From assembly GCF_026745355.1 (NCBI RefSeq), contig NC_079202.1, positions 30,695,240 to 30,759,239 of the forward strand: a DNA stretch of 64,000 nt. The letters run 5' to 3'. Below the pieces are notes generated by a model that was not told the origin of the DNA, ran no database searches, and was given only the letters and a program-made list of their open reading frames with translations. The DNA comes from Beta vulgaris subsp. vulgaris. Its lineage: Eukaryota > Streptophyta > Magnoliopsida > Caryophyllales > Amaranthaceae. The position numbers and the translations under genes were made by a program. This document shows positions 39,975 through 57,319 of the stretch, one piece after another (position 1 is the stretch's first letter; each line of letters begins with the position of its first letter).

Positions 39975-39983
39975 GGTTTTCCC

Positions 39984-40031
39984 GAGAAATCATAAACATC
40001 TAATTGCTAGATGTTTATAAACATCTAGCAA
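39984..40031 (+). repeat. MULE left terminal inverted repeat
   Basis: 48 bases match the right end with two mismatches, both in the first 9 bases. The inner 28 bases (40004-40031, TTGCTAGATGTTTATA and its mirror) form a perfect palindrome, and ATAAACATCTA occurs twice. Confidence 0.93.
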
Positions 40032-40343
40032 AGATTAAATAATATAAAAAATTTGAAAAGTAGTGAAGTGGGTCCCCAGGGAATGGAGTAGGAAAGCAGG
40101 GCAAACGGATAGTTAACGGAGAGTACAATTGTCAAAAGTGTTGAAAAAAGTACAATTGTCAACAGTGTACAAAATATTTTTTTCTCTTTCATCAACTTCT
40201 CTTTCATCAACAGTCTATAATTTTTTCTCTTAAGACTCTGTATCTCGGAATTTAACTTAATTGAAAATTGGAAAATTGAGATTTATGAAGATACGTATAT
40301 AATAGTTGAAGAATCGAAGAAGCAAGTAAAAAAATTTTGGGCG

Positions 40344-43300
40344 ATGGATGTAGATAACATTGTGCAGCTGAATGAGGATGTCGAAATGAATCATCAGGTA
40401 CTTATAAAATTATACATGTGGGTTTGATATTTATTGTAAATAATAGGGTTTGATATTTATTGTAAAGAATTGGGTTTGATATTTATTGTAAATAAATGCA
40501 TTGATTTTGTCATAAGGTAAGTATAAATTTATTTGTTTGACTGTCGTAATTGCATTTGTTTGATTGCAATAAATTGTAGGGAAATGGCAAATATTTGTAG
40601 TTATTGCAATAAATATTAGGGTAAGCAATAAATAAGGTAACGAAATAATTAATTGTAATAATATGCAGGACTACTTGAATTTGTGTAGCATTGATGATGG
40701 GAGGGTTGTAGCAATGGGTGTTGAGGCAGTGGGTGTTGAGGCAGTGGAGACACCTGATCCTTTAAGTTGTAGTAGTGCAGCTGGGTCGAACAATGTGGTT
40801 GAACCACCTGCAGTAGGTATGATATTTGGGACATGGGAGTTTGCTGATGAATATTTAAGGAAATATGGGAAGCGGGAAGGGTTTGCTGTTGTTAGGGCAG
40901 CTGGTTCTCATAAGAAAGGTGAAGGTAATAAAGTTGAAAAGGGTTGGAGGAATAATACATGGAAATGCGAATGTTCTGGTAAATCGGACGTGAAACGAGC
41001 TTTGAAGGGTAGGGTAGCTGTTGGACGTAAGGGTATTCAAGTGGCAACTAGGAAGTCGAAGAAATGCAATTGCCCTGTTATGATGTATGCTTGTTGCAAT
41101 GAAGGAGGTGAGTGGCAATTGAAGAAAGTCATTTTGGATCATGTGAACCATAATCCAACGCCAAGCAAGTCAAAGTTCATAAAGCATGTTTCGGAAGGAG
41201 GAGGTTACATGTGCTGTAAGGACACGGTTGTTCAATGATCATGCTGTTGGTGTGAGGATTTCACAGATTCATAGTAGTTTAGCGCGTGATAGGAATGGGT
41301 TGGACAATATGGCTATAACAGAAGGGGATCTTAGGAATATAATTGCGAAGGAGAGGAAATTGAAGCTTGGGCCTGGTGATGCTAATGCAATGATGAATTA
41401 TTTTAACAAGATGGCGGAGGACAACCAAAAGTTCTTTCACAGTCATCGATTAGACGAAGAAGGGTACTTGAAGGATGTGTTATGGGTTGATGCTAGGTCT
41501 CGAGTGGCTTACGAGGAATTCTGTGATGTGGTTGCTTTTGATGCGACATATTTGACTAATGACTATGAACTACCGTTCGCAAACTTTGTCGGAGTGAACC
41601 ACCATGGACAGACCATATTGCTTGGATGTGCGTTAGTTTCGCACGAGGATGCAGAGACATATGAATGGGTATTTAGCACTTGGGTGTTATGCATGGGTGG
41701 TAGAGCACCCATTGGTATATTGACTGACCAAGACGCGGCGATGAAAAGGCACTCCACAATGCTATGCCTCAATCTGTGCACCGATGGTGTATATGACATA
41801 TAATGATGAAATTTGGGAAGAAGCTAGGTTCGTATGCAAATTACAAGGACTTGAAGGAAGCGTTGACACAGTCCATCTATGAAAGTACAAGCCCTGATGT
41901 GTTTGACAGAACATGGGTGGTTGCCATAGAGAAGTATGGTGTAGGTGATGATGAATGGCTTGAAGGTATGTGATTATTAGGTTTTATGCTATTAGGTTTT
42001 ATGCAATTGATGGTTTTATGCAATTGATGGTTTTATGCAATTGATGGTTTAATGCATTGGTTATCAATCTGCACAGAAAAGAAGAACTGTTATAGAAGAA
42101 CTGTTATAGAGAAGTATGGAGATGAACTGTTATGCAAATAAAGAGTAAGCAAAATAAAATATACAAAGATGAACTGTTATAATGCATGAACCTTATGGAT
42201 ATTCTCAGAAATTGTGATGATGCAAAACCATGTTGTTCAAAATGATCACATTATTTATCACATTATTTAGTTAGAAATAGTAACTTAGAATAGTATGAAT
42301 ATTTACAGGGTTGTTTCGTGAAAGGCACATGTGGGTCCCTGCTTACATGAAACATCTATTTTGGGCGGGTATGAAAACAACTCAAAGGTCCGACAGTATT
42401 AACAGTTTTTTTGATGGTTATGTTCACAAAACGACAAAGTCGTGTGAGTTTGCAGAGCAGTTTTGTAACGCTATGGAAGCTAGAGCAAATGCGGAGAAGG
42501 AAGCAGATGCAAATAGCGCGAGGTACCTCCGTCTTACTGTTACTACCTTCAAGACTGAACATGTATTTCAAAAGGTGTACACTGATGCTAAATTTAAAGA
42601 GATACAAAATGAATGTCTGAAGGTGCTTTACCTTCAATGGAGTGGGAAAAAAGATATTGGAGATGATGTTGTAGAGCACTTGTTCGAGGATAGGGTGTGG
42701 GTGATGTGCAAGGAGACGAGGAAAGAGGTGCCTTTGGAGAGACATGTGAGTATGTTGTTCGTATAGACATGGAGAGTACGGAGGCAACTTGTGATTGCAA
42801 GATGTTTGAGTCTGCGGGAATAATGTGTAGGCACATTATATCCTTGTATCTTAAGTTGAAAATTAAGGAGATTCCTGAGAAGTACATATTGAGGCGTTGG
42901 CGGAAAGATGTATTTCGAAAGCACACAATGGTAAAGGTAGCATATCATGACCCTCAAAGACAGAAGAAGTGCAGAACTATGATAGGATGATGGTAGTATT
43001 TGACCCAATCTGCTTGAAGGCTGCCAACTATGGTGATACTCACACAGTTTTGGAGACCCTCCAACTACTAAACATACGTCTTGATGAGCGGCATGCTATG
43101 AAACTTTGTGGTATTAGTACGAAGAATTGCACCCCGAAATCGGTTGGTAATAGGCAGTTGGTGCCAAATTCGGTAGGGGTTGTTAGTTCAAACAGGTTGG
43201 ACGAAAAAACCCCAAGTGAAGTGGTAGGATGTGAAATGGAAGGGGAAGGGAGTCGTGTAGACGTACGGCATGTTAGTTGTGTTGATGTTGATGTTGATGT

Positions 43301-43708
43301 TGATGTAGTATCTGTGAAAGACCCCCCAAGGAAAAAAACTAAGAGGGCAGCTAGACTGCTTTCGTGTATCGAGAAGAATGTGAAGAAGGATGAAGCAACG
43401 AAGAAGAAAGAAGCATCGAAGAATCCACGAGGGAAAGGAGTTAAAAGAAAGGAGGTTGGAGAGGAGGTATTGTCCATTTGGAATAATACATTATTAGTTG
43501 AAGTAAGATGTTAATGTGATTAATGTGATGATTTCATTGATGTAGGAGGCACATCTACAGTTGGAGTTGTGGCCATCCAATTCTCGTAATGAAGGTAAGG
43601 TAACGCACATCTACAACAATAATTTTTATTATTCATCTTTTATAGTAATATTTCATGTTACTAATGGAAATCAAATATTTATGTAATTTTTGTTACACAG
43701 GTATATGA
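40344..43708 (+). pseudogene. MULE transposase, FAR1/MURA type, broken
   Basis: Predicted exons are 40344-40397, 40669-41965, 42309-43466, 43546-43594 and 43701-43708, all with GT-AG borders. Exon 1 encodes MDVDNIVQLNEDVEMNHQ. The FAR1 zinc-binding domain (FADEYLRKYGKREGF to WQLKKVILDHVNHNP) spans 40835-41160. The MULE DDE core follows: VVAFDATYLTND with the first Asp, FVGVNHHGQTILLG, and GILTDQDAAM with the second Asp. A SWIM zinc finger (CDCKMFESAGIMCRH) lies at 42792-42836, then a Lys-rich C-terminus with a VD repeat. Breaks: frameshifts near 41210, 41752, 42745 and 42970, and a stop replacing Trp in RWCIWHI (about 41798). It would have cut and joined the element ends. Confidence 0.9.
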
Positions 43709-43854
43709 ATGAAGTTAGAAATCATCACTACGGATTGAAGAGAAGATGCAATGTAATACAATGAAAATGTAATAAACTGTAAACGCCAACTTTTACATTA
43801 ACGACTTAGAATGGTGTAGATAGATGCATTGCAATACAATGATAATGTAATAAA

Positions 43855-44796
43855 CTAAATGACATCTTCTACACCAGTTGGTGAAATTTGAAATGCAACA
43901 TTGTTATCTGGTAGGTAAGATGAAAGTACGATTCGCATGGATCGTGTTTTATGACCATTCAAATTGGAAATTTGTAAGAAGAAACGGTTGTTGATGTAGT
44001 TCGACCAAGAAATTCCAAGAGCAGGTTCAACTTGAGTGTCAGATGAAATAAGAGTTAAGTTGTTGGTGTTGTGCTGGGAGTTGTTTCCTATAGATTGCCG
44101 GACCTCGTTAGTGCAGACGATAACGATATTGAAACTGTATGCAATTTCGCGTAGCGTAGCAGATACTTTGAATAGGATTTTCGATCTTGTCGTCATATCT
44201 AGTTTATTGTTTTCGAATGCACATTGGAATATTGAACCAATTGAGTCGATGACAATAAGGCGAACGTTCCGGGAAGAATGTTCTGCTTGTTGACATAAAA
44301 TTGTAATTTCTTTAAGTGTTTTTAGTAGTCTATAGGGGTCGTCCACTCGCTTGATTGTTATGTGACTAAGGTCAACATATTCAGCATTTATTCCGTTCTT
44401 ACCTTTCACGTATCCACAAAGTTGTGTAAGACGCGTTATAGGGAACTTCGAGTTCGAGTGTATGTAAATGGATGCTCCGAAGAGGCCACCACATTGTGGT
44501 GGGAGCTGAGCTGTCAATGCTAATTGTAAGCAAAGTTGTGTCTTACCAGAACTGCTTTCCCCACATAGCTCGGTGATGATTTGGGTAGGAAAGCCGCCTT
44601 GTAACATGGTGTCGATTCCTTTGCATCCTAGTCCTATCTTTTGTTGTAACCTTCTATGGGTGGCTAAATTAGTTGGTTCCATTAGATGGGTTGATGGTGC
44701 GTTTGTGGATGAAGATGTTGGAGTATTAATGTTTGGTATGGATTGGGTCGTTGGATCCATTGTGGGTTTATAAATACATGGAAAGTGGCAATGCAA
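43855..44796 (-). CDS. XRCC3: XRCC3-like RAD51-paralogue, single open exon inside the MULE
   Basis: The 313-codon frame is uninterrupted. The core starts at about residue 47 with KIGLGCKGIDTMLQGGFP. Walker A is GESSSGKT (79-86), followed by QLCLQLALTAQLP; GASIYIHSNSKFPITRL matches the XRCC3 pattern after Walker A; Walker B is RLIVID (179-184). SWSNYINNRFFLQ and IVLSSYLPDNNVAFQI resemble the XRCC3 C-terminus. XRCC3 works with RAD51C in recombinational repair. The length fits the plant family (about 300). The likelier start is Met13 (44760); the first 46 residues are Ser/Thr/Pro-rich linker. The gene lies tail to tail with the transposase, 147 bases away. The lack of introns suggests a captured retrocopy, but host XRCC3 intron number was not checked. 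Whether it is expressed is unknown. Confidence 0.85.
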   Translation of the reverse strand: MHCHFPCIYKPTMDPTTQSIPNINTPTSSSTNAPSTHLMEPTNLATHRRLQQKIGLGCKGIDTMLQGGFPTQIITELCGESSSGKTQLCLQLALTAQLPPQCGGLFGASIYIHSNSKFPITRLTQLCGYVKGKNGINAEYVDLSHITIKRVDDPYRLLKTLKEITILCQQAEHSSRNVRLIVIDSIGSIFQCAFENNKLDMTTRSKILFKVSATLREIAYSFNIVIVCTNEVRQSIGNNSQHNTNNLTLISSDTQVEPALGISWSNYINNRFFLQISNLNGHKTRSMRIVLSSYLPDNNVAFQISPTGVEDVI

Positions 44797-45063
44797 TTTA
44801 TAGGGGATAAAATTTAGTACTGGACTAGCACTAGCTAGGCACTGTTAACAACCCAGCTGTTGACAACCAACCCACTGCAACACGCAAACCCACTGCAGGC
44901 CCAGCTAAGTCTGCAACACGCAAACCCACTGCAGCCCAGCTGTCGGTTGGTGTTGGTGAAGTGATTGCATTTGCTTTACCATTTCAGCTTTACCATAAAC
45001 TAAAATAATAAACTAACTAGACACCACTAATAATAAACTAACTAGACAGCACTAATAATAATA

Positions 45064-45342
<279 letters not shown>

Positions 45343-45514
45343 AATATTAACTACTAAACTAATTCACTACTAAAGTTATAAACATAACAAAAGTTATAAA
45401 CTACTACAGTTATAAACATAATAACAGTAATTAAGTACTAAACATAATAATAAGGGTCTTAATTATTAGTACAAAATTAGCTGATGATTTGTCATAATTA
45501 AGATCACAAAATAT

Positions 45515-46139
45515 TCAGTTACTTATGTGTTCATCTTCTTCATTCCTACACCTTTCCAGTTCATCTTCTTCCTGCAAACAGCCTCTTCCTTCCATATGTG
45601 TTCCGTTTAGACTACAATTTAGGAGATGACATAAAATTAAGTTAACTTAAAATTAATTTCTCAGATTCATAATAACAGTCAGTTACGTTTAACAAGATAG
45701 AAATTCAATAACTTACCATGACTTCAACCACGAATATAGCATTGGGCCCATTTTCAGCCCTTATGACATCCACATCGACGTCGTTTTCACACCACATAAC
45801 AACCATTCCCCCAGAAATGCCAACTCCGTTGACGCACTCATACTTCATGGTCGTGCCGATTAGTGCATGAACCTCCGCAAACTCTTGCTCTGTAACCCTC
45901 GTTTCTAGTAGAACGATAACCACCGGTTGATGGACACCGATGATCGTCCATAAATGGGAAACGAAAGATGGCCTAGCACAACCTCTAACACTCCATATTA
46001 AAATTGGGGTGTGTGGGGGTAAAGGGTTTAACTCACTGATGCCCCCCCTTAGTCGGACCATACTGTAGTGCCACTCATCTCCCCTCCTAACACGCATACT
46101 AGAAAACATGGTCATCCTTATGTGTGACATTGGTGCCAT
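45515..46139 (-). CDS. Endonuclease-like (LINE/EEP N-terminal type) protein, partial, MULE cargo
   Basis: The minus-strand frame 46139-45705 contains ILIWSVRGCARPSFVSHLWTII, then VVIVLLETRVTEQEF and ISGGMVVMWCENDVDVDVI. This follows the start of LINE-type endonuclease/exonuclease/phosphatase domains (W-NVRG, then L-ETR with the metal-binding Glu, then SGG-WVLW). Only the first third of the domain is present, so nuclease activity is not expected. A GT donor at 45716 and an AG acceptor at 45612 allow a second exon rich in Glu and Asp down to about 45515, but the joined frame is uncertain. It overlaps the next gene upstream by about 20 bases in another frame. Captured fragment or a fused relic are both possible. 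Confidence 0.45.
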
Positions 46140-46662
46140 ATGTGCATCACATGAAGGTCATGTACGTAACTTGCCATTAAAACTTGAACTACATCAGTTC
46201 TCATCAAGTATATTAAACCTGAATCAGGAATGGTGAATTTTGGGTCCAAAATGTACCTTGCAAACTCTGGCACAATGTTTTTACTGCCTTCCTCATCTAG
46301 CTTGCATAAACTCCAATCCAGGAAAACCTTGAAAGCATCTGGTACCCTTATTAGATCAGTTATGTTAGGTATGTGGCCAATTCTCGCCGGAGCCGATGGA
46401 TCTTCTTTCATCTTCAAGGGACTGTATAAAGTGCAATCAATATTTTCCCGCCGAGATTCCTAATAATCTTCCTCAGTTTCCACGGTGTTGCATCAACTTC
46501 CCCAAAAAGGAGTGTCCCTCCAATAAACACATTTGTTGAAATCTAATTCTGGCTTTCTAATGGGTGGAGGGATGCCATATATGGTGGAGTTTGAAGGTGA
46601 TTCAGTGAAGGACCACCCTGTTGGTGGTTCCATCGTCGGGGAAAGGTTTGCATGTTCTTCCA
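46118..46662 (-). pseudogene. Unrecognised MULE cargo gene, frameshifted
   Basis: It starts at ATG 46662 (MEEHANLSPTMEPPTGWSF). Coding character then moves between frames: a Pro-rich N-terminus with GIPPPIRKPELDFN, then FIGGTLLFGEVDATPWKLRKII (about 46530-46465), then the open 46417-46118 with RIGHIPNITDLIRVPDAFKVFLDW and EFARYILDPKFTIPDSGLIYLM. I do not recognise the family. At least two frameshifts are needed to read it through. It may once have been one gene with the endonuclease-like region that follows. Confidence 0.45.
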
Positions 46663-46689
46663 TGGTAGGTGGGAGAAGTTGATAGGATT

Positions 46690-47780
46690 GAGTTTTAGGG
46701 AGTTTTAGGGAGTTTTAGGATTTTGTATATGTTTATAGTAATAGTAATAACTTATACAACTACCGTTCAGTTTTCATTTAATAATACAAATTTTACACAA
46801 ACATATGTAAAATGACACAAGTTGTAATTTAAAGAATAAAATTGTAATTCTTACAAACATTATTTCTATAGTAACATACACAAGTTCTAATACAAATAAT
46901 ACAATTTAATTAGTTACAAACACTATTTATAAATGATGAACAGATGTTGAAAATGGGAATACAAATTACTTAAATCGAAACTTCGTTGAACCTATACACG
47001 GATACAAATACTTTAATACCAAACACAATTTTCATAATTCCGAACAAAAGTTCAACATCCATGAATAGTAATCATTAAATTCGAAAAAGTATTTTTATAA
47101 TGGCGACCAGACGTTAGAACATCCATGATATATAATTCGAAACATATTGTGTATAATGAGGAACAGAAGTTGTAAATCCAACAATACAATTGAAATTCGT
47201 CCAGACACAAATTATATAATGAGGAACACAAGTTGTAAATCTTTGAAGACAAATTATTTAATTCGAAACATCACCCTTCTATAGACATGGACAGGAAATA
47301 ATTTAGTTAGAAACACAATTTTGAAAACACCGAACACAAGTTCAATATCCAAGAATAGTTATCATTTAATTCCAAATACTATTTTCATAATGGCGACAAG
47401 ACGTTCACAATCCATGATTAGAAATTTTATAATTCGAAATAAATATTATATAATGAGGACCAGAAGTTCTAAATCTATTAACACAAATTTAAATAAGTTC
47501 ATAATTTGTATATTATATAATGAGGAATGTTTTACAAACACAACATATTGATGTACGAATACAATATTGTATATTACAAACACAATTTTATAATTTATAA
47601 ACACATATCTAACTTACGAACACAATATAGCATTACATACACACAAGTTATATTGAAATTACCAACTAACTAAACAAACTTTTGAAACTTAACAAACTTG
47701 TCACACATAACAAACTTATGAAACTTAAGTAAGTTGAAATTATATCCTATTATATTCATTGAATAATCTATAATATTTTA
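46690..47780. other. AT-rich MULE interior with imperfect short repeats
   Basis: The words ataatgaggaac, acaagttgtaaat and attcgaaa recur at irregular spacing between about 47050 and 47530. No gene was recognised. Confidence 0.55.
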
Positions 47781-47783
47781 CAC

Positions 47784-48381
47784 GCACTTCTTTTTGTTCT
47801 TCTTGTTCCTTCCCTCATCGTCCGAATCGGTTTCCTTCCTCTTCTTCTTGTTGCTCGTTCCCTCATCGGAATGGGTACATTTCTTCTTCTTACTAGTGCC
47901 CTCTTCGAAATCGTTACACTTCCTTTTGCTGGTTCCCTCGTTAGATTTAGGAAACATTTATTCCCCAAAGAGGAGAGGAAACCCGTCAAGGAAGTCTGCC
48001 CAGTCAGTTGAGAGTGTGTTGTATAGAGAAATGGCATTAAAAAAAAAAGACAATGTCCCGTGCAATCTCCGCTCTCCTCCTCATGCAATTCTTCATCCAG
48101 TTAGATTCTTCAAGCCACTCATCATTGAATAGCCTCCATAGCCTGCATGTGCCACGAAGTGCGGCTCTGTCATCATCCGAACACCTTTCAAAAATGGCAT
48201 GTCTCATGAGGTGTTCAATTGAAAGCAAAGGATGCCGAGGGTTAGGGACATTGTCATTAGGGACATGTACATTTTCATTATTGTCCACAACATTGATTTC
48301 TTGTTCGTTCACTCCATCCATATTTGTTTGTTGTTTGTTTTCGCCATCCATGTTTATATCTTGTTCGTTTTTTCGCTCCAA
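47784..48381 (-). pseudogene. Unrecognised lysine-rich MULE cargo gene
   Basis: The ATG at 48381 starts an Asn/Gln/Glu-rich N-terminus (MERKNEQDINMDGENKQ), then PLLSIEHLMRHAIFERCSDDDRAALRGTCRLW, which loosely recalls an F-box helix pair (weak). The frame ends in a run of Ts on the minus strand at about 48038-48049 (DIVFFF). Skipping one base there continues with AISLYNTLSTDWADFLDGFP, one stop, and a C-terminus with KKKKC and KKNKKKCV (47960-47784), likely a nuclear localisation signal. The poly-T run is a slippage site, so the break may be recent. Function unknown. Confidence 0.45.
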
Positions 48382-48441
48382 CTTTCTATCTTCTTTCTTC
48401 TCTTATATTTGTTCTTCTATATGTCAATTATGAATAAGTAA

Positions 48442-49118
48442 TGGTAATTTTGCCTTATTTATAGACAACATAAACGTGTCTCTTCATTTGTGTCTCTTCA
48501 ATGGTAACGGGTGCAAATGTTCACTATAATAACAATGTGCCTCTTCATAATGAAGTTGTGCCTATTTAGTTTTAAAGTGGTGCAACTGTTCACGCAAATA
48601 AATTTATAATGTGCCTCTTCATAATTAAGTTGTGCATTTCAAGTGGCACTTCACATATTAACTTTTAACTACTACTGTTTCTTCTTACATTAATCGTGTT
48701 TCATAAAATATAAACGTTGTTTACTTTTGTTTGTTGATGTGTTCGTTCATGATAATTTATTATTTGTATTCAAAATATTCAACGTAAGAAATTGTTTATA
48801 AATACTCGTGTTCACTACTGTTTCTACATTTATGTACTCTTGTTTTGTTGAAAATAAATAGTGTTTACCTATATTTATCTACTGTTCTTCACTTCAAAAC
48901 ATATTATAGTGTCAACTTACTGTTGTTCTTTAGTATAAAAAGTATAAAAATGTTGTTATATTTGACAGTAGTTCTGTTTCTGCACAACTTACTATTGTTA
49001 TTTTACAAAGACTTTTTGTTTTGGTTTCTAAGACTAGTATTCAGGTACTTCATCGAAGTAGTAAACATAGGGTTCACCTTTAAATTTTCTCCATGTATCG
49101 CATAAATTAGAGAGAACT
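48442..49118. other. AT-rich intergenic DNA in the MULE
   Basis: The gene to the left is read leftward and the gene to the right rightward, so this is a shared divergent promoter region. No motif is clear. Confidence 0.5.
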
Positions 49119-49623
49119 ATGGAGAGCAAGGGGTCGTCTTCCAACTCAAAGGGCTCAAAGGGATGCGTGAAATGTTACCACGATTTGGACGCCGTTGTAC
49201 GGGTGACCACAAAAACCGGTCGGAATGCGGGGAGAAAATTTTATGGATGCTCACTTTGGCCGGTATAATATCCTTTTCTTTTTGGTTTGCTCTCATAAAT
49301 GTTAATTAAGTTACTTTTTTTTTTGTTTTTTTTAGGATGAACGTGCCTGCGGATTTTTCCAATGGGAGGATGATATGCGCGAAATAATAAGTGAACTCGA
49401 AACAACCATCATCACCATGGAAGAAGAAAAGCGAACGTTACAAAAGAGGGTTTTGAAGTTGGAGAAGAAGAATTCTGATGTTTTGGAGTCCAATGTTTTG
49501 TTGCAAAGCGAAATTGCGGAGCTTAGAATTCAATTACTAAGAACAAGTAGATCTGAAAAGGCTTCGAATTTTGCTTTCTTCCTTTCTTGGATTGTATTCA
49601 CCATTGTCCTGTACCTGAAATAA
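49119..49623 (+). CDS. GRF zinc-finger protein with coiled coil and C-terminal membrane anchor
   Basis: Two exons, 49119-49262 and 49336-49623, joined at clean GT-AG borders, give 143 codons. A Ser/Lys-rich start leads to a GRF-type zinc finger: CVKC (16-19), TTKTGRNAGRKFYGC (30-44) and RACGFFQWEDD (51-61), the spacing and GR-FY-C/C-FF-W pattern of the family. Residues about 64-118 form a charged coiled coil (EEEKRTLQKRVLKLEKKNSD). The end, NFAFFLSWIVFTIVLYLK, is a likely tail anchor. GRF fingers bind nucleic acids in other proteins. Plant transposon-linked copies with this coiled-coil and anchor plan are known to me as a family without assigned function. The frame is fully open. Confidence 0.8.
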
Positions 49624-49830
49624 TATGCGTTTAATGTTGTATGAGATTGTACTTTTCTGTACTTGTGTGTTGCAATTATATTTCATTCACTTTATTTGGC
49701 GTTATTAGTTCTCACCAACCTCGTAATGTTGGCATTTATTGAACTTTTCATTGGCTATAAAACCGGGTTTAAATAAACAAAAAAATGCATTCACATAAAC
49801 ACAAATACCATAAACAGCTCCTCCTCATCC

Positions 49831-50543
49831 ATGTCAGTTTCATCCGTTTCATCAGATGGACTGTGCAGTCTATCCACAGTCGGCAGTTCAGTGCACCACG
49901 GGGTTCCAATCACCATGAAATGCATGTTCATGGTCAAGGGGGCCGATCTAGACGATGAAGGAACTAAGTATAATGTTTCTGTCCACAAACCATTTAAGGA
50001 TGTTTACGAAGATTATGCACAAAGGGCAGGGATACCACCACGTGAATTGTGGTTGGTGTACCATGAACGACTATTACAAGCCGATGCAACGCCCTTCACA
50101 TATAAATTGAACTCCGGAGATATCGTCCTCGCATATAAGAAGGTACAAAATGTGTGTCTATAATATGTAAAAAGGTTTATGATATGAATTTATTAATTTT
50201 TGAGGGTTATTTAGATATTGAAAATGTAATTTATGTATAATGTATAATAACATTTGAACAGGATACTAATATTGGGATCTCAATTGTCCCAACTGAAGAC
50301 AACAAAATGATGTGGACTACTTTCACAATTCAAGATCTCCGTACATGTCCAATTGTACAAAGGTTTCGCATGCCTAAAGACAACCTTGTCCAAGACGTTT
50401 ACGACGAATGGGCAGCATCACAAGGGGTGTCTGAGGAAAGAGTGACGTTGTGGCTAGATACAGACGTGCTACAAAGAAACGCGAGGATTGGTGAATCAAA
50501 CATTTATGACGGGGCAGTCATTTATGGCCAAGTAGCAAAGTGA
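49831..50543 (+). CDS. Protein with two tandem ubiquitin-like domains, MULE cargo
   Basis: Exons 49831-50142 and 50262-50543 (GT-AG) give 197 codons without a break. After a Ser-rich leader, residues about 33-104 read like a ubiquitin/SUMO fold: MFMVKGADLDDEGTKYNVSV, then FKDVYEDYAQRAGIPPRELWLVYHERLL, and LNSGDIVLAYKK. The second half (about 121-197) repeats the plan: FTIQDLRTCPIV, QDVYDEWAASQGVSEERVTLW, and IYDGAVIYGQVAK. No Gly-Gly occurs at the end of either half, so it is not expected to be conjugated. It probably acts as a Ubl interaction module. It follows the GRF gene by 207 bases in the same direction and faces the Ulp1-type gene. Confidence 0.75.
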
Positions 50544-51043
50544 ATACAAATAATCTCCGTTAACTATCTTAACATTTAAAGAGCGATCTAAATTATAATA
50601 TCTATCCAAACATTATAATATCTTAATATCTTAAATGTTATAATCTTAAGAAGTAGGAGCTAAACATTTTGGTTTTCAAGTTTCAATTATCAATATGTAC
50701 TAGTGTATGTGGGGTTTTAAAGTATGGATTATATACCACAATATATGGTATAACAATATGTAATATGTATTGGGTGTTCAATTATGAAATATATACCACA
50801 TTATATGGTATGCAAAATCTCTCCCATATAATATGCATTGTATGGGCTTTCACAGTTAATAACAATTACATACCACATGTTCCATATACAAAAAAGAGGA
50901 ACCACAAGTTCCATATGAGATATGTCAAAAGCTTGTATACCCATATACCCATTTCCCATTATACACATGTTCATATGAAACAAAAAATTACCAGTCAGAT
51001 GCAAGCTTGCATTAGCTACCTAAATTTAAGTGTTAACTATCTT
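50544..51043. other. Intergenic region between the convergent Ubl and Ulp1-type genes
   Basis: AT-rich, with several imperfect tatatggtat/atataccaca inverted words (50730-50820). No gene. Confidence 0.5.
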
Positions 51044-54000
51044 TCAACATGACTTCAACATATCTTTCACACTATCCCTTGCCTCGTTGAAATCACACAT
51101 AACGTCCTCGCTCAGCAACCATTTTCGCTCCTCCACCATGTTTCCCTGCACTTACTTTGTCAGTCCACATAACGCTGTATACTTAAACCATTTTCACTTA
51201 AATATAATCCAAAAATATTACCATTTGCTGCATCGTTTCAACAAATCGATCATCGTTCATCTTTATCGAAATCAACATTAACACACCACAGCTTCGCCTA
51301 AACATAACGATCACTCAATGTAACCAAACTAATGTAACCAAACATATTACAAATTTATTTGACGACATAAACTTACGTGTCTGGCTGTTGATTCATGTGC
51401 ATTGAACTCCGGGCCACGTCAGTATTTGCCCCGCCTGCCACCGACTGTCCACACTACCGAAGAACCGGTCCATGGCATAACACTGATTTTAAAGAGATCA
51501 TAACTTGCGTTAAAAATATTATCAGTTTATAACCTATTTGAAATGGAAGGGGATCCTTACTTACCAACTTGATGAGGGTTAAGTGGTGAACATCAGCAGC
51601 TGCATTAGTCTCCATAGATTCTATGACAAGAACCTCCTCTCTATTAATGGAGAATGCCGCACACCACCAATGATCGGCCTCTAAAACTGGTACGAACACC
51701 TGACATTAATGCGAAAACATCTATCAATTACAATCCGGCAACAACCACAACAACAATAAACCATACATAACAACACTTTCAACATACCACATTAATCCTG
51801 TCATACGATGAAACTCCCCAATACTTTATATATGATGATATGATCCGATCAACACTTTCCCAACTTTCTCCTACAACCTGCATCACCCTTATCTACAAAT
51901 ATAGCAAACTATATTAGATTAACATCACCAAGGCACACACTTCCAATTTACAGATATCTTACTGCTAACCGCAAAGGTAGGATCCATCATCAATCTACAA
52001 CTTCTATTCCCAAATCGTTTCCTCCACACTTTCGAATATAGACAAGCTACTACACGAACATACTGTAAATGAACAACAACTAACATTATAGTAAACGCCA
52101 CAATATAAAGACATTAAAGTTAGTTTCATGTCACTCACTTACATTATCGTCCACTCGGCCACGCGCTTGTGCAACACTTTTGCAACTACTCAATCTTGCA
52201 GTGTGTCCATCACATTTTATTATTACTGGATTTTCCCTGACATTTTCATCACATTGTATGTTACTTTTACAAATAAATATCAATTAAACTAATATATGAA
52301 TTTAAGTGAAACTTTCAAAACACTTACTTGCATTTCAGCATTAACTCAAACAGTTTGTCCTTGTTTAAGGACCTACGGCGCCACGTCTGGTCGTAATCCT
52401 CACTAAGAACAACAGCAACAACTTTGTCTTTCTTTGTCTGCGGCTTCGCGGTTGCTCCTCTTCCTGTTCCTCTACTTGTTCATGCTGAGAACAGACAACA
52501 GACAACTTTCTCTTTCTGTTGTCCATCTACTGGTGGAGACAGCAATGGTATTTCTTCCCCTGATTGTTCCTCTTCATGTCCTTCTAGTGCTGGAGACAGC
52601 AATGGTATTTCATCCACATTCAGACCACTGTCCATGCTCTCTACTACAACTATCTCCATAACTCTACCAAACTCCCCTTCATCACTTTCCATGTTCATGT
52701 CAAGCCAATTGTACTTTGACCCCTCTCCGTACGACACCCACTAATCTCCTTATCGTTTAGATCTGATAAGAAATCTACATCATAAGAAATCTACATGATA
52801 AGAAATCTACATCATACATCATATTTTTTCAGATTTTATTTTACCAAAATTACTTTAAGTAGTGAAAATTAAATCATTTCTCACCTGAATTCAACAAGTG
52901 CTCATATCCATTAACGTTCCCCTCCACGTTATCATTTTCCATCGAATCACATTTTGCCGTTGCATCTGCTGTTGCTTCAGCCTCTCTATTCTTGCCTTCT
53001 GCTGTTTTGTCTCCCTTTCTTGTTCTGCATCCCTTTCATCATCCCTCTCATTTTCTGCCTCCCTTTCTTCTTCTGCCTCCCTCTCTTTTTCATGTTCTCC
53101 CTCTCCTCCAAACTCCCCTTCAGCCCTTTCTTCTCCCACCCTCTCATTTTCTGCCTCCCTTTCATGTTCTCCCTCTCTTCCAAACTCTTCAGCCCTTTGA
53201 TCTTCTGCCTCCCTTTCCCTTTCATCTTCATACTCCCTTTCTTCCCCATCTTCTGCCTCCATTTCCCTTTCATCTTCTGCCTCCATTTCCTGTTCTCCCA
53301 AACCATCTAATGCATCTTGAACTTCCTTCCTCAGCTTATACTCATATGGAGTATATTTACAATATCCTTTTCGTCTCCCATTTAACATCCCTTTCCTCTT
53401 CCTCTTTTTATTCCACCATTGTAGTTCACCTGTTCAATTCAATTAGCTCAATCAAATTGCTATGATTACCTATATTTACATGTTTCAAATATATACAACT
53501 TCCTCACCTCGACTACAGATGATTCACTAGGCATTTTATCTCGTGCTTCGAATGGATGAGGTTCACCATATGCAACATCTAAACACTTCAACACATTTAA
53601 ATATGTCATTCAGTTATCTTATATTCCACTTATATACTATATCTGAACAGAACAACACTTTAACACTTACCCCAAGCCGACCGTAATCACGAGAAACTTT
53701 CATGTCCTCTCTCTTCGCAAGGTTTATGTCTTCCTTGCTCCAAGCCTGCATTCTTGGAAAAACTCCCCATAAGACAGGGTTCCTCTTCAACCGGTCCAAG
53801 TAAAAAACCTGTACCATAAGACAATACATTCAACCACCACAAAAACATTCAACCACCACACAAAATGAACCATATACAAAATGAACCATAACTAAATTAA
53901 CTAACCGCCAAGAATATTGTGCATCCTCCGCAACACTTTGCGAAACCATCAGTATAGAACCTCTTCGCAAAGTTACCCACACATTGCATTAGGTGATCCA

Positions 54001-55300
54001 AAACAAAGCTACACCAATCATATTCTTTCGCCCTTTCCGCTATGGCTACAACGGGAAGCATATGCACAGACATTCTATGACAGCTAGTCGGAGCCAACAA
54101 ATCATTAACTGCCAACATCATAAAGGCTTTCTTGAAATCACCCTCATCACCTACTGGTCCCTCCACAAGTTCCATTATTGTCTTACGTTCAACTCCTCTA
54201 GGACCGGAGGGGCACCTGTTTACAAACGCGTCACACAACCTTCCCACTTCACTTTCCATTTCCTCATTTTCACACACTACTGGTACACCTCTAGGACCAA
54301 TTGGCAGACCTAGAACCCAATGCACTTGGATCTTCGATAGCGGGAATTCTAAGCCATCATTCAAAACCATTCTCCTCCTCTTAACATCCACCATCGTGCA
54401 CAACCAATAGCATAAATTCCTTGGCAACCCTTTATCTACAAAGTGAAGCAATCCACCAAACCCCATCTCACAAACAAGTCGCTTTTTTCTTTCATCAAAC
54501 TGCTTCACAATTTGTCCAAAGGTCTCCACTCGACAGTTTATATTTACTTCCTGTCATTTATTCATTATTTTAAAACTAACACAACAAACATGTAACAATT
54601 CAAATTTAGCATGTGAGATTTTATTTTAAGCATGTACCCGTTTTACAGCTCCGAACGTCTCGCCAATTACTTCGCCGCTATCCTTCAACCTTCCACCAAC
54701 ACTTAAATCATTTACCTAAAAGATCAGTTTAAATTGCAAGTCCATCACTCAACCATCCTTACTTCACTAAATATTACAACCATCAGTAATACCCACCTTA
54801 TATATTTCAGCGTCAACAGGTTTCCTTGTGCCTCCAGTTTTCGCAGTACTACGTTCATCTTCCTATATTTAACCATTTTTTAAAAACATTATCATTCATT
54901 CACAAAATTACTGTCTAATCTTCGAATTATGGGAAACAAGCACATCTAATCTTCATAAGTGGTGCAATTTATTAAAGCATACCTCCTCATACTCTGCCAC
55001 ACCGCGTTGCTTTCTACGACACTTACCCTTTCCTCCTACATTGTCATCACACCATTTTACATGGAAAACAAAGAAAATTACGCATATGCTAAAAAATTAT
55101 CACATGCTATATATTCAACATGCAATTCAAATAAATACCACAAAAATCAAGCATCTTCGGTTTCCTTTATTATAATTTAACAAAAAATAACATTATTCCA
55201 TCAATTATTCTTATATTTACATATATGCTAATCACTTACCTCGGACCATAGCTGACCTTCTCTTCTCTTCGCCTGTATTGTCTTCAACCTTTAAATTTCT
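51044..55300 (-). pseudogene. Ulp1-type (C48) cysteine-protease gene of MULE type, many exons, damaged
   Basis: Exons by GT-AG borders include 54862-54797, 54715-54638, 54550-53906, 53808-53671, 53578-53508, 53429-52885, 52748-52328, 52236-52143, 52062-51970, about 51887-51788, 51699-51565, 51482-51377, 51297-51222 and 51145-51044. 54550-53906 encodes a plant-mobile-type N-terminal domain (FDERKKRLVCEMGFGGLLHF, VHWVLGLPIGPRGVPVV). 53429-52885 is a Glu/Arg repeat tract with KQQQMQRQ. The protease end has VPVLEADHWWCAAF (catalytic His), VLVIESM (Glu where Asp is usual) and QPDTRSCGVLM (catalytic Cys). Ulp1 enzymes remove SUMO-like modifiers. There is an in-frame TGA in 52748-52328 (about 52485), a likely shift near 52960 and another in 51482-51377. 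The start is unclear. Confidence 0.75.
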
Positions 55301-55628
55301 ATTTCTTCAACGCCCAAATTGTTAACTCCTCATAAAATCCTCCCTTAGTAATTATATTTTGTTTATAATTCCTCACCCTTTCAAATTTCGGAAATATATT
55401 CAGATTGTCTCGATTTTCGGGATTTTTCTCTTTCTTTCCTCTCTCATTATTGTCTTCTATTGTCCTGTCATAAGTACTTACAACTGTACTTACCAACATG
55501 TAATAATATTTTATTACAAGGGAAAAGGCAGGAATCATCCGGGAATGGGAAAACCAAACGTCCGTTACCCCTCCCAAGGAAAAGACTTCCAAGCCCTTAC
55601 CTTTATTTGTGAAAAAACCAGCGTGTCC

Positions 55629-55676
55629 TTGCTAGATGTTTATAAACATCTAGCAATTAGATGTTTATCATTTCAC
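55629..55676 (-). repeat. MULE right terminal inverted repeat
   Basis: Reverse complement of 39984-40031 with two mismatches; it includes the 28-base palindrome at 55629-55656. It is followed by the target copy ggttttccc at 55677. Confidence 0.93.
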
Positions 55677-55685
55677 GGTTTTCCC

Positions 55686-56472: not shown

Positions 56473-56905
56473 CTACAAGAAAAAGATTTTTTTAGGGAAA
56501 GACCAACAAGACAAGTAGATAACATTCATAGTGATATCCAAAACCAGCAAAGAGTCAATACAATTAGAAAAAATAACTAACCAAAATTTTCTACCTGCTA
56601 TAACCCAAGGCAAGCAATGAGCTAGCTCATGAGCAACATTGTTTCCCTCCCTATGGACAAAACTCCAATACACAACATCGAACATGCTATTAGCATGAAC
56701 AACGTCATCAAGAATAAGATGGAAGCTACTCCCACCTCGCTCTCGTGAAGAAATTGAGTTAATAAGGTGAAGAAAATCGTTTTCCACAACAACATTCCAA
56801 AATCCAAACTTCGCAGCAACCTCAATACCAAATAACATAGTCTTTGTCGAGAGCCGACCCATAATCGAAATAGTTTTAGCCTTAAAAAAAGTAGAAAGAA
56901 CACTT
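56473..56905 (-). pseudogene. LINE-type RNase H domain fragment
   Basis: The minus-strand frame 56862-56473 reads MLFGIEVAAKFGFWNVVVENDFL, then LINSISSRERGGSSFHLILDDV, and WSFVHREGNNVAHELAHCLPWVI. This is the C-terminal RNase H-like (RVT_3) domain found at the end of plant non-LTR ORF2. The catalytic Asp positions read END and NNVAHELAH, so at least one is changed. Nothing of ORF2 upstream is present; it is a 5'-truncated remnant. Confidence 0.75.
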
Positions 56906-57319
56906 CGCGCGTGTTAGAAAGAAGAAGAAACTTGTAAAGTCTGCAATATACTACATATATTTATAGAAGCAAGTTGAAATACATTTTAAATATTGTTTTT
57001 CAATTGTAATTAGTTTTCCAATTTCCTTAAATCTCTTGCGTTACAATACCTTTCTTCAAAAACAAGTTACCGTAAAGAAGAAATGACAGTCACTAATTCC
57101 TCCACATCACCAGCAACATTTATGTTAATATATAATTATAGATAAATCTTCCTTATTTTTTGTTTGACAATTTTACAGCATTATGGATATCTTCTAAAAC
57201 TACATATATTAAAATTCAAAATTTATTTTCTGTATTTGTATTTGAATTTTTTTTATTTATCGTATATCATTCGTATTAATACGATATTTTTTTGTTTTCT
57301 TCTCCTCTATTTCTTATCC

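Follow-up and report, generated by a model that had tools for sequence, protein, structure and literature searches.

A large Mutator-like element of Beta vulgaris with an XRCC3-like RAD51 paralogue, a tandem ubiquitin-like gene and a Ulp1-type protease gene

Introduction

Genes for Ulp1-type proteases have been described in several groups of plant transposons. The accessible portions of PMC2528002 report them in Mutator-like elements (MULEs) of Arabidopsis, melon, rice and grapevine, with and without terminal inverted repeats (TIRs) and sometimes opposite to the transposase, and also in CACTA elements. The EPSPS cassette of Amaranthus palmeri, considered here by description only, lists a Ulp1 gene as well (PMC5240378, partial text), and the word "ulp" was not found in the accessible part of the main text of PMC5735166. 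Here we describe a MULE of 15,693 bp located at 39984-55676 of a 64,000-nucleotide stretch of the Beta vulgaris subsp. vulgaris genome (NC_079202.1, positions 30,695,240 to 30,759,239; hereafter the window, to which all coordinates refer unless a contig is named). Beside a FAR1-type transposase gene, its lineage carries an accessory set that comprises an XRCC3-like RAD51 paralogue, a tandem ubiquitin-like (Ubl) protein, a GRF zinc finger protein, an F-box-like protein, an EEP-like protein and a Ulp1-type protease with an N-terminus like the plant mobile domain (PMD). A first-pass annotation of the sequence had presented this element as a candidate for an undescribed system. Ulp1-bearing MULEs are already known, as the annotation itself stated and as the parts of PMC2528002 and PMC13317346 at hand confirm, so that the new part is the RAD51 paralogue, the Ubl gene and the stability of the set. 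No report of a MULE with XRCC3 or RAD51 cargo was found in the open literature, most subscription papers lying outside that search; judged by their titles, the listed papers that came closest deal with meiotic recombination (the one among those listed that contains RAD51) and with male sterility in Brassica.

Among the closest described systems, KAONASHI/KIU and other Ulp1-MULEs resemble the window element in that the MULE holds a gene for a Ulp1-type protease, which may oppose the transposase (PMC2528002 and PMC13317346, in part). However, KI elements are described without TIRs and with three genes, and the portions of these sources at hand mention neither a RAD51 paralogue nor a tandem Ubl gene; the window element does have TIRs. 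VANDAL elements are likewise multi-gene MULEs in which an accessory protein acts for the element, but they carry VANC instead of XRCC3, Ubl and GRF, and their TIRs are absent or degenerate according to the accessible text of PMC6446971. We set them apart by description. Pack-MULEs also place MULE ends around host-derived coding DNA, but the DNA they enclose is fragmentary, whereas the window element holds near full-length genes kept beside the transposase across lineages; Pack-MULEs are not known to carry a transposase. Jittery and other FAR1-type TIR-MULEs have the FAR1 N-terminus, the MULE DDE domain and the 9-bp target site duplications (TSDs) seen in the window element, from which they differ in that the window lineage reaches 14-19 kb (without nested insertions) and has a stable accessory set.

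The copy gain of cut-and-paste transposons depends on host repair of the excision gap. A RAD51 paralogue kept by a transposon over deep divergence would make it testable whether the element steers the choice of repair. Ulp1 proteases are frequent in plant transposons, and with the protease kept here beside a selected Ubl gene, its substrate or regulator can be sought directly. The cargo genes seem to belong to the mobile element itself and not to be passengers picked up by accident.

Results and Discussion

We consider it highly probable that the window element belongs, as a single copy, to an old lineage of large MULEs with TIRs and a standing, selected accessory set inherited alongside the transposase. 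Three observations directly support this reading: the set recurs in independent insertions, it recurs in a second lineage that has ends of its own, and most of its genes show selection at the protein level.

The element has a transposase domain (Pfam FAR1 5.3e-7, MULE 9.2e-22, in agreement with the FAR1-type transposase of the first-pass annotation), TIRs, and a TSD within the 8-11 bp given among MULE features in the accessible text of PMC6446971. The 9-bp TSD, ggttttccc, lies at 39975-39983 and 55677-55685. On the plus strand of the window it occurs only at these two borders, and its reverse complement occurs once, at 55547; among 200,000 random pairs of 9-mers drawn from the window, six were identical. 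The 48-bp TIRs, at 39984-40031 (plus strand) and 55629-55676 (minus strand), agree at 46 of 48 positions, so that the ends stand as they had been annotated. Each TIR holds a perfect 28-bp palindrome (40004-40031 in the left one), by which the 10-mer TAAACATCTA is present three times per end in alternating orientation. The tripled TAAACATCTA looks like a set of putative transposase binding sites. Searches of viral and prokaryote collections with the TIR core gave 0 matches each.

The left end, as a 77-bp query against the source genome (assembly G000; 569 Mb, 20 contigs), gave at least 80 matches, 40 of 144 candidates being scored. Eight of the scored places, the window included, match the whole query, and 29 others match bases 1-47 at 98%; sequences were retrieved for all seven non-window full-query places and for seven of the 29. 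Copies are named here by their contig (C1, C2 and so on). The seven full-query places represent six independent sibling insertions, each with its own TSD (five exact, one 8/9): C6 (16,069 bp, TSD 10/10), C5 (15,742 bp, 9/9), C10a near 13.85 Mb (C10:13847806-13870195; 22,390 bp, 9/9), C10b near 42.21 Mb (14,195 bp, 10/10), C2b (16,100 bp, 10/10), which is accompanied by C2a, a partial tandem duplicate sharing its left flank, and C3 (C3:42975786-42998585; 22,800 bp, 8/9). Together with the window these form the eight rows compared below. Transposase, XRCC3, Ubl and Ulp1 exons are present in all six siblings at 94-100% nucleotide identity to the window. Divergence from the window is 2.7-16.9% in non-coding DNA, 1.3-5.1% in XRCC3 and 1.2-3.4% in Ubl. 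In C10b, GRF exon 1 and most of the EEP-like and F-box-like genes are missing; C3 is without the F-box-like open reading frame (ORF), and C2a ends before Ulp1.

These siblings bear on two other accounts of the locus. A misassembly joining unrelated ends, named by the first-pass annotation as one case that would overturn its view, is spoken against by siblings with other duplications. Extra DNA in C10a (about 6.6 kb) and C3 (about 7 kb) is what one might see if a chance nest of several transposons had been mistaken for one element. However, C5, C6, C2b and C10b share the order of the genes that they have, each within its own TSD, and we regard a chance nest as extremely improbable and as ruled out by these end-to-end siblings.

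A separate lineage was found at C9:827684-846788 (19,105 bp), with its own 51-bp ends, 98% identical to each other, and the TSD ctaaaagag (9/9). Its ends retain the layout of an outer motif followed by an inverted pair, and a relative of every gene is present. Protein identity to the window over aligned codons is 81% for the transposase, 58% for XRCC3, 59% for Ubl, 60% for GRF, 77% for Ulp1, 77% for the EEP-like and 66% for the F-box-like protein. The EEP-like/F-box-like/GRF/Ubl block is inverted as a unit relative to the window. The synonymous divergence (dS) between the two lies at 0.4-0.6 in the EEP-like and F-box-like genes and at 1.0-2.9 in transposase, XRCC3, Ubl and Ulp1, and the lower values suggest that the EEP-like/F-box-like block may have been exchanged between lineages later.

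Three stretches of 9.9 kb at deeper loci were picked by hand, those on C6 and C10 for divergent open XRCC3 frames and that on C1 for its seeming lack of partners. The C6 locus near 6.97 Mb, which belongs to the C9 lineage, holds XRCC3, Ubl, GRF, F-box-like and EEP-like genes, with no transposase or Ulp1 seen within its stretch. The C10 locus near 49.23 Mb holds transposase (58-60%), XRCC3 (38%), EEP-like (28-34%), Ubl (29-36%) and Ulp1 exons (52-55%), with no GRF or F-box-like gene within the stretch. At the C1 locus near 32.12 Mb we found transposase (53%), XRCC3 (48%), EEP-like (36-37%), F-box-like (46%) and Ulp1 exons (60-68%), with no Ubl or GRF within the stretch. Recurrence of XRCC3, Ubl and Ulp1 in independent insertions, which the first-pass annotation had proposed as a check, is thus seen in all six siblings, in the C9 element and at the C10 locus near 49.23 Mb.

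For the XRCC3-like, EEP-like and Ubl genes, the association also holds genome-wide. Matches to the XRCC3-like gene (79) fall into 56 loci, the host gene included, those to orf46118, the N-terminal part of the EEP-like protein, into 42 (44 matches), and those to Ubl exon 2 into 34 (35 matches). Within 15 kb, 31 of the 56 XRCC3-like loci have orf46118, 19 have Ubl, 34 have either and 16 have both. When orf46118 loci were placed at random, a mean of 0.118 XRCC3 loci had a partner, with a maximum of 2 in 500 draws. One of the other two genes is nearby at 28 of the 34 Ubl loci and at 39 of the 42 orf46118 loci, and the host XRCC3, as expected, is without either. Divergent partners escape this tally, since the C1 locus near 32.12 Mb does hold set members.

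Selection among the copies was estimated as the ratio of nonsynonymous to synonymous variation per site (pN/pS), from codons covered by four rows or more, with masking around gaps and wherever local identity fell below 80%; as the rows are related and variants were treated as independent, the p-values are guides. Purifying selection is seen on the XRCC3-like gene (291 codons, 32 nonsynonymous and 32 synonymous variants, 2 stops; pN/pS 0.33, p=1e-5), Ubl (both exons; 182 codons, 13 and 16, 0 stops; 0.23, p=1e-4), GRF (131 codons, 11 and 12, 0 stops; 0.27, p=2e-3) and the F-box-like gene (109 codons, 10 and 11, 0 stops; 0.22, p=7e-4), as on the transposase (766 codons, 64 and 42, 1 stop; 0.42, p=2e-5). 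The EEP-like gene gave 0.57 (248 codons, 38 and 19, 0 stops; p=0.03). Leaving out C3, the ratios are 0.39 for transposase, 0.40 for XRCC3, 0.13 for GRF, 0.18 for Ubl, 0.22 for F-box-like, 0.46 for EEP-like, and 1.21 and 0.70 for the first and the other Ulp1 exons. This gap-masked count replaces an unmasked one (transposase 0.61, XRCC3 0.39, GRF 0.35, Ubl 0.26, F-box-like 0.33, Ulp1 0.92, EEP-like 0.69, orf46118 0.76), owing to the poor alignment of C3 in transposase exon 1.

Between the window and C9, the ratio of nonsynonymous to synonymous divergence (omega) is 0.11 for transposase, 0.19 for XRCC3, 0.11 for Ubl, 0.06 for Ulp1, 0.26 for EEP-like and 0.63 for F-box-like; these values are rough, dS being high, and the query frames of the transposase were taken from C2b and C3. 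For GRF, where dS is saturated, pN/pS is 0.37. XRCC3-like, Ubl and GRF are under purifying selection between the lineages too, and Ulp1 is constrained between lineages only.

The uptake of gene fragments is common in MULEs (PMC2528002 and PMC13317346, in part), and the cargo could in principle consist of host gene pieces passively captured as in Pack-MULEs and now decaying as passengers. The relaxed look of Ulp1 among young copies and the broken frames in many copies would fit such a history. Against it are the pN/pS values among copies, which for XRCC3, Ubl, GRF and F-box-like are well below 1, the strong constraint between lineages on all genes but the F-box-like one, and the retention of set members down to 28-38% protein identity. 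Passive capture is largely refuted for XRCC3, Ubl and GRF, and as an account of the whole set we consider it very unlikely.

Several points weigh against a standing, selected set. In this assembly none of the eight rows is open through all segments: XRCC3 is open in three, both Ubl exons in four, transposase exon 1 in three and exon 2 in none (the transposase segments counted, to 41968 and from 42302, exceed the intron ends by a few bases, and the longest open stretch was used for codons). C10b has another residue in place of the Walker A threonine, and in both C2 rows a stop follows closely on this motif. At the Asp position of the Ulp1 triad the window copy has E and C3 has G, and no significant purifying selection is seen on Ulp1 among young copies, either in the first exon (209 codons, 32 nonsynonymous and 11 synonymous variants, 3 stops; pN/pS 0.89, p=0.42) or in the three others (115 codons, 18 and 9, 0 stops; 0.51, p=0.08). 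The F-box-like gene is weakly constrained between lineages (pN/pS 0.69, interval 0.47-1.06). At 22 of the 56 XRCC3-like loci neither tested partner was found; one of these is the host gene and another, which was inspected, holds other set members. The support of 84/82 for a clade of element XRCC3s is not strong, and an earlier tree with long branches, which may explain the result, placed them outside land plants. As to the frames, an alignment of the recent duplicate pair C2a and C2b has 3 substitutions and 17 gap openings in its 11,147 columns; single-base indels are therefore poor evidence of decay in this indel-noisy assembly, and the open-frame counts of the eight rows are hard to judge. 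The pair lies in C2:5227146-5255835 of G000, where most of one insertion stands in a tandem segmental duplication, which serves as a gauge of assembly errors.

The XRCC3-like gene (43855-44760, minus strand) is a single open frame of 301 amino acids with the Walker A motif GESSSGKTQ (Pfam Rad51 1.1e-29), and the best PDB matches of its product are to XRCC3 (4.3e-35). Among 74 database matches the nearest two are at 59% and 64% identity and annotated plant XRCC3 proteins at 30-41%. The host XRCC3 lies at C5:10393773-10394690 and shares with the element gene the Rad51 ATPase core with Walker A and the single open frame, but it is 75% identical to Silene XRCC3 against 41% for the window protein, and the element XRCC3s fall in a clade of their own, in which four of them group with two database proteins. 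A topology uniting plant and element XRCC3s is not rejected (p-AU 0.44). A single capture of XRCC3 would fit these data. Retroposed capture was considered and set aside: the lack of an intron in the element gene is uninformative either way, because the host XRCC3 is also one open frame.

XRCC3-like frames of the C9 kind are found at C6:6968238, C9:831702, C11:56627658 and C3:42970782 of G000. The C6 frame is 100% identical to the public protein P0001 over residues 1-59 and 74-283, the C9 stretch agrees with P0001 by eye, and the other two score similarly to these against the window query. These frames suggest that the C9 lineage may have spread recently.

The selection described above is silent on who benefits. 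The XRCC3-like and Ubl proteins could serve the host as domesticated or beneficial cargo, selection then acting on the plant and not on the element, and the presence of a separate host XRCC3 leaves room for a special role of the element's protein. However, the genes stand beside the transposase in the six siblings, in C9 and at the two deeper loci whose stretch reached it, and they are multi-copy with many copies broken, as expected of element genes. We thus think that service to the host is unlikely, and we infer that the accessory proteins help the element.

How they would do so can be outlined. The XRCC3-like protein, together with host RAD51C and RAD51, would push repair of the excision gap to copying from the sister chromatid or homologue, and such templated repair would refill the donor site and raise the copy number. 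The Walker A GxxxxGKT is kept in the XRCC3-like proteins of four lineages, which would fit a working RAD51-paralogue partner and a gap-refilling role. We put forward this steering of repair tentatively and rate it as somewhat less likely than not.

The Ubl gene has two exons on the plus strand. Exon 1 (49831-50142) encodes a first ubiquitin/SUMO-like domain (Pfam ubiquitin 1.2e-6) and has two database relatives, at 98% and 92%. Exon 2 (50262-50543) encodes a putative second Ubl domain (Rad60-SLD 7e-4, under the cut-off). The protein ends in YGQVAK in the window and YGQVKK in C9, so that neither lineage has the terminal di-glycine of conjugation, and as encoded the protein is predicted to be one that cannot be conjugated. 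Because the di-glycine is absent, we propose that the Ubl protein would act by binding. Comparison with PDB gave weak SUMO/NIP45 matches (best 0.0056), and a single-sequence model built for exon 2 (pLDDT 72) found nothing in Foldseek at E<=0.001; none of the 50 matches listed was a ubiquitin-type protein. The protein may serve as a SUMO-like docking domain.

The Ulp1-type gene (51050-54551, minus strand) has PMD-like N-terminal exons (54551-53907 and 53808-53671), a variable acidic middle where the gene model is unsure, and catalytic exons at 51700-51566 (His) and 51294-51222 (Cys), with a last exon at about 51142-51050; the C-terminal exons were placed by Bienertia and spinach alignments and splice sites. 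The N-terminal exons have 22 database matches (13 Bienertia, 3 quinoa, 3 beet, 2 spinach and 1 Eragrostis; best 53-54%), and the C-terminal exons align to the same Bienertia protein and to a spinach protein with Peptidase_C48, a domain also found in the C9 relative (1.3e-5). The catalytic exons are present in seven of the eight rows, and His, Asp and Cys are all kept in C9 and in C6, C5, C10a, C10b and C2b. The annotated protein nearest to the Ulp1-type one, P0077 of Bienertia, seems by eye to be without the catalytic His and Cys, so that part of the family may be catalytically dead.

The protease could also be at the centre of an anti-silencing module, in which PMD-Ulp1 would be a VANC-like factor for demethylation of its own family, Ubl and F-box-like its partners, and XRCC3 secondary. 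According to the accessible text of a review (PMC13317346), the Ulp1-bearing KIU genes are VANC genes and VANDALs that carry KIU hypomethylate related elements. Among young copies, amino-acid variants per site are most frequent in the first Ulp1 exon (0.071), as may be so in arms-race genes. On the other hand, the N-terminal region resembles the plant mobile domain (1.3e-4, under the cut-off), and the window element has TIRs where VANDALs have none or short degenerate ones (PMC6446971, in part). We regard this module as possible but rather doubtful.

For the lineage of TIR-MULEs with a selected accessory set, we hypothesize in turn that SUMO or ubiquitin marks carried by proteins of silencing or repair would be altered by the Ulp1-type protease, by the Ubl protein through binding and perhaps by the F-box-like protein. 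Such interference is plausible, though its chances fall somewhat short of even. It is tempting to join both proposals into a transposon with its own selected homologous-recombination mediator for templated gap repair and a SUMO/ubiquitin toolkit acting against silencing or tuning the choice of repair; as a whole, this picture is rather unlikely to be right in all its parts.

The first-pass annotation had called the element complete. Its structure is, but the transposase gene of the window copy (40636-43514, plus strand) is broken. Exon 1 runs to about 41965 and exon 2 starts at about 42309, and removal of the intron (about 41966-42308) joins the two stretches in frame. At least three single-base indels and one in-frame stop are private to the window copy, being absent from all seven sibling rows. 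The stop is the firmest lesion, given the indel noise of the assembly. In the Ulp1-type gene, a comparison of six rows shows at least one frame break private to the window, near 51409, and the acidic middle differs in length. All named lesions were left uncorrected in the sequence. Among the siblings, a nested insertion of about 6.6 kb lies inside the Ulp1-type gene of C10a, and one of about 4.7 kb inside the transposase gene of C3.

The cargo list of the first-pass annotation stood for the XRCC3-like, GRF, tandem Ubl and Ulp1-type genes and needed revision for the others. The ORF it had called endonuclease-like and a neighbouring ORF of its two unknowns form one reading frame in both siblings read (328 amino acids in C6, 344 in C3). 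They belong to the EEP-like protein, split in the window copy (45705-46459, minus strand), which had no Pfam match and which we take to be EEP-like by resemblance. A long TAA microsatellite (45000-45345) lies between this gene and the XRCC3-like one. The second unknown is probably the weakly F-box-like protein, whose first coding part lies at 48040-48402 (minus strand) and to which a lysine-rich tail at 47775-47960 may belong. Its F-box domain is below the Pfam cut-off (0.08 in the window protein, 0.0075 in the C9 relative), and a structure model of the ORF (pLDDT 50) was too poor for use. The GRF gene (49119-49621, plus strand; exons at about 49119-49270 and 49337-49621) encodes a GRF zinc finger (Pfam on joined exons 1e-14 in the window, 5e-15 in C9), a coiled coil and a C-terminal hydrophobic tail (49547-49621). 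The tail is alike in both lineages and resembles those of tail-anchored membrane proteins.

The seven short-match places retrieved are derivatives of 641-671 bp with the TIRs of the window element at both ends: C12:50880234-50880874, C1:13484037-13484705, C11:51631377-51632037, C2:759357-760017, C5:63983874-63984528, C1:59047402-59048061 and C9:847067-847737. The TSD is exact in five, 8/9 in one and missing in one. At C1:59047402 the flanks seem to be inverted rather than direct repeats. The derivatives likely form a family like miniature inverted-repeat transposable elements, with 22 more single-end matches alike, not read end to end. Just beyond the right end of the window element, at 56473-56913 on the minus strand, an RVT_3 domain (reverse transcriptase-like RNase H, 6e-13) is probably the remnant of a retroelement.

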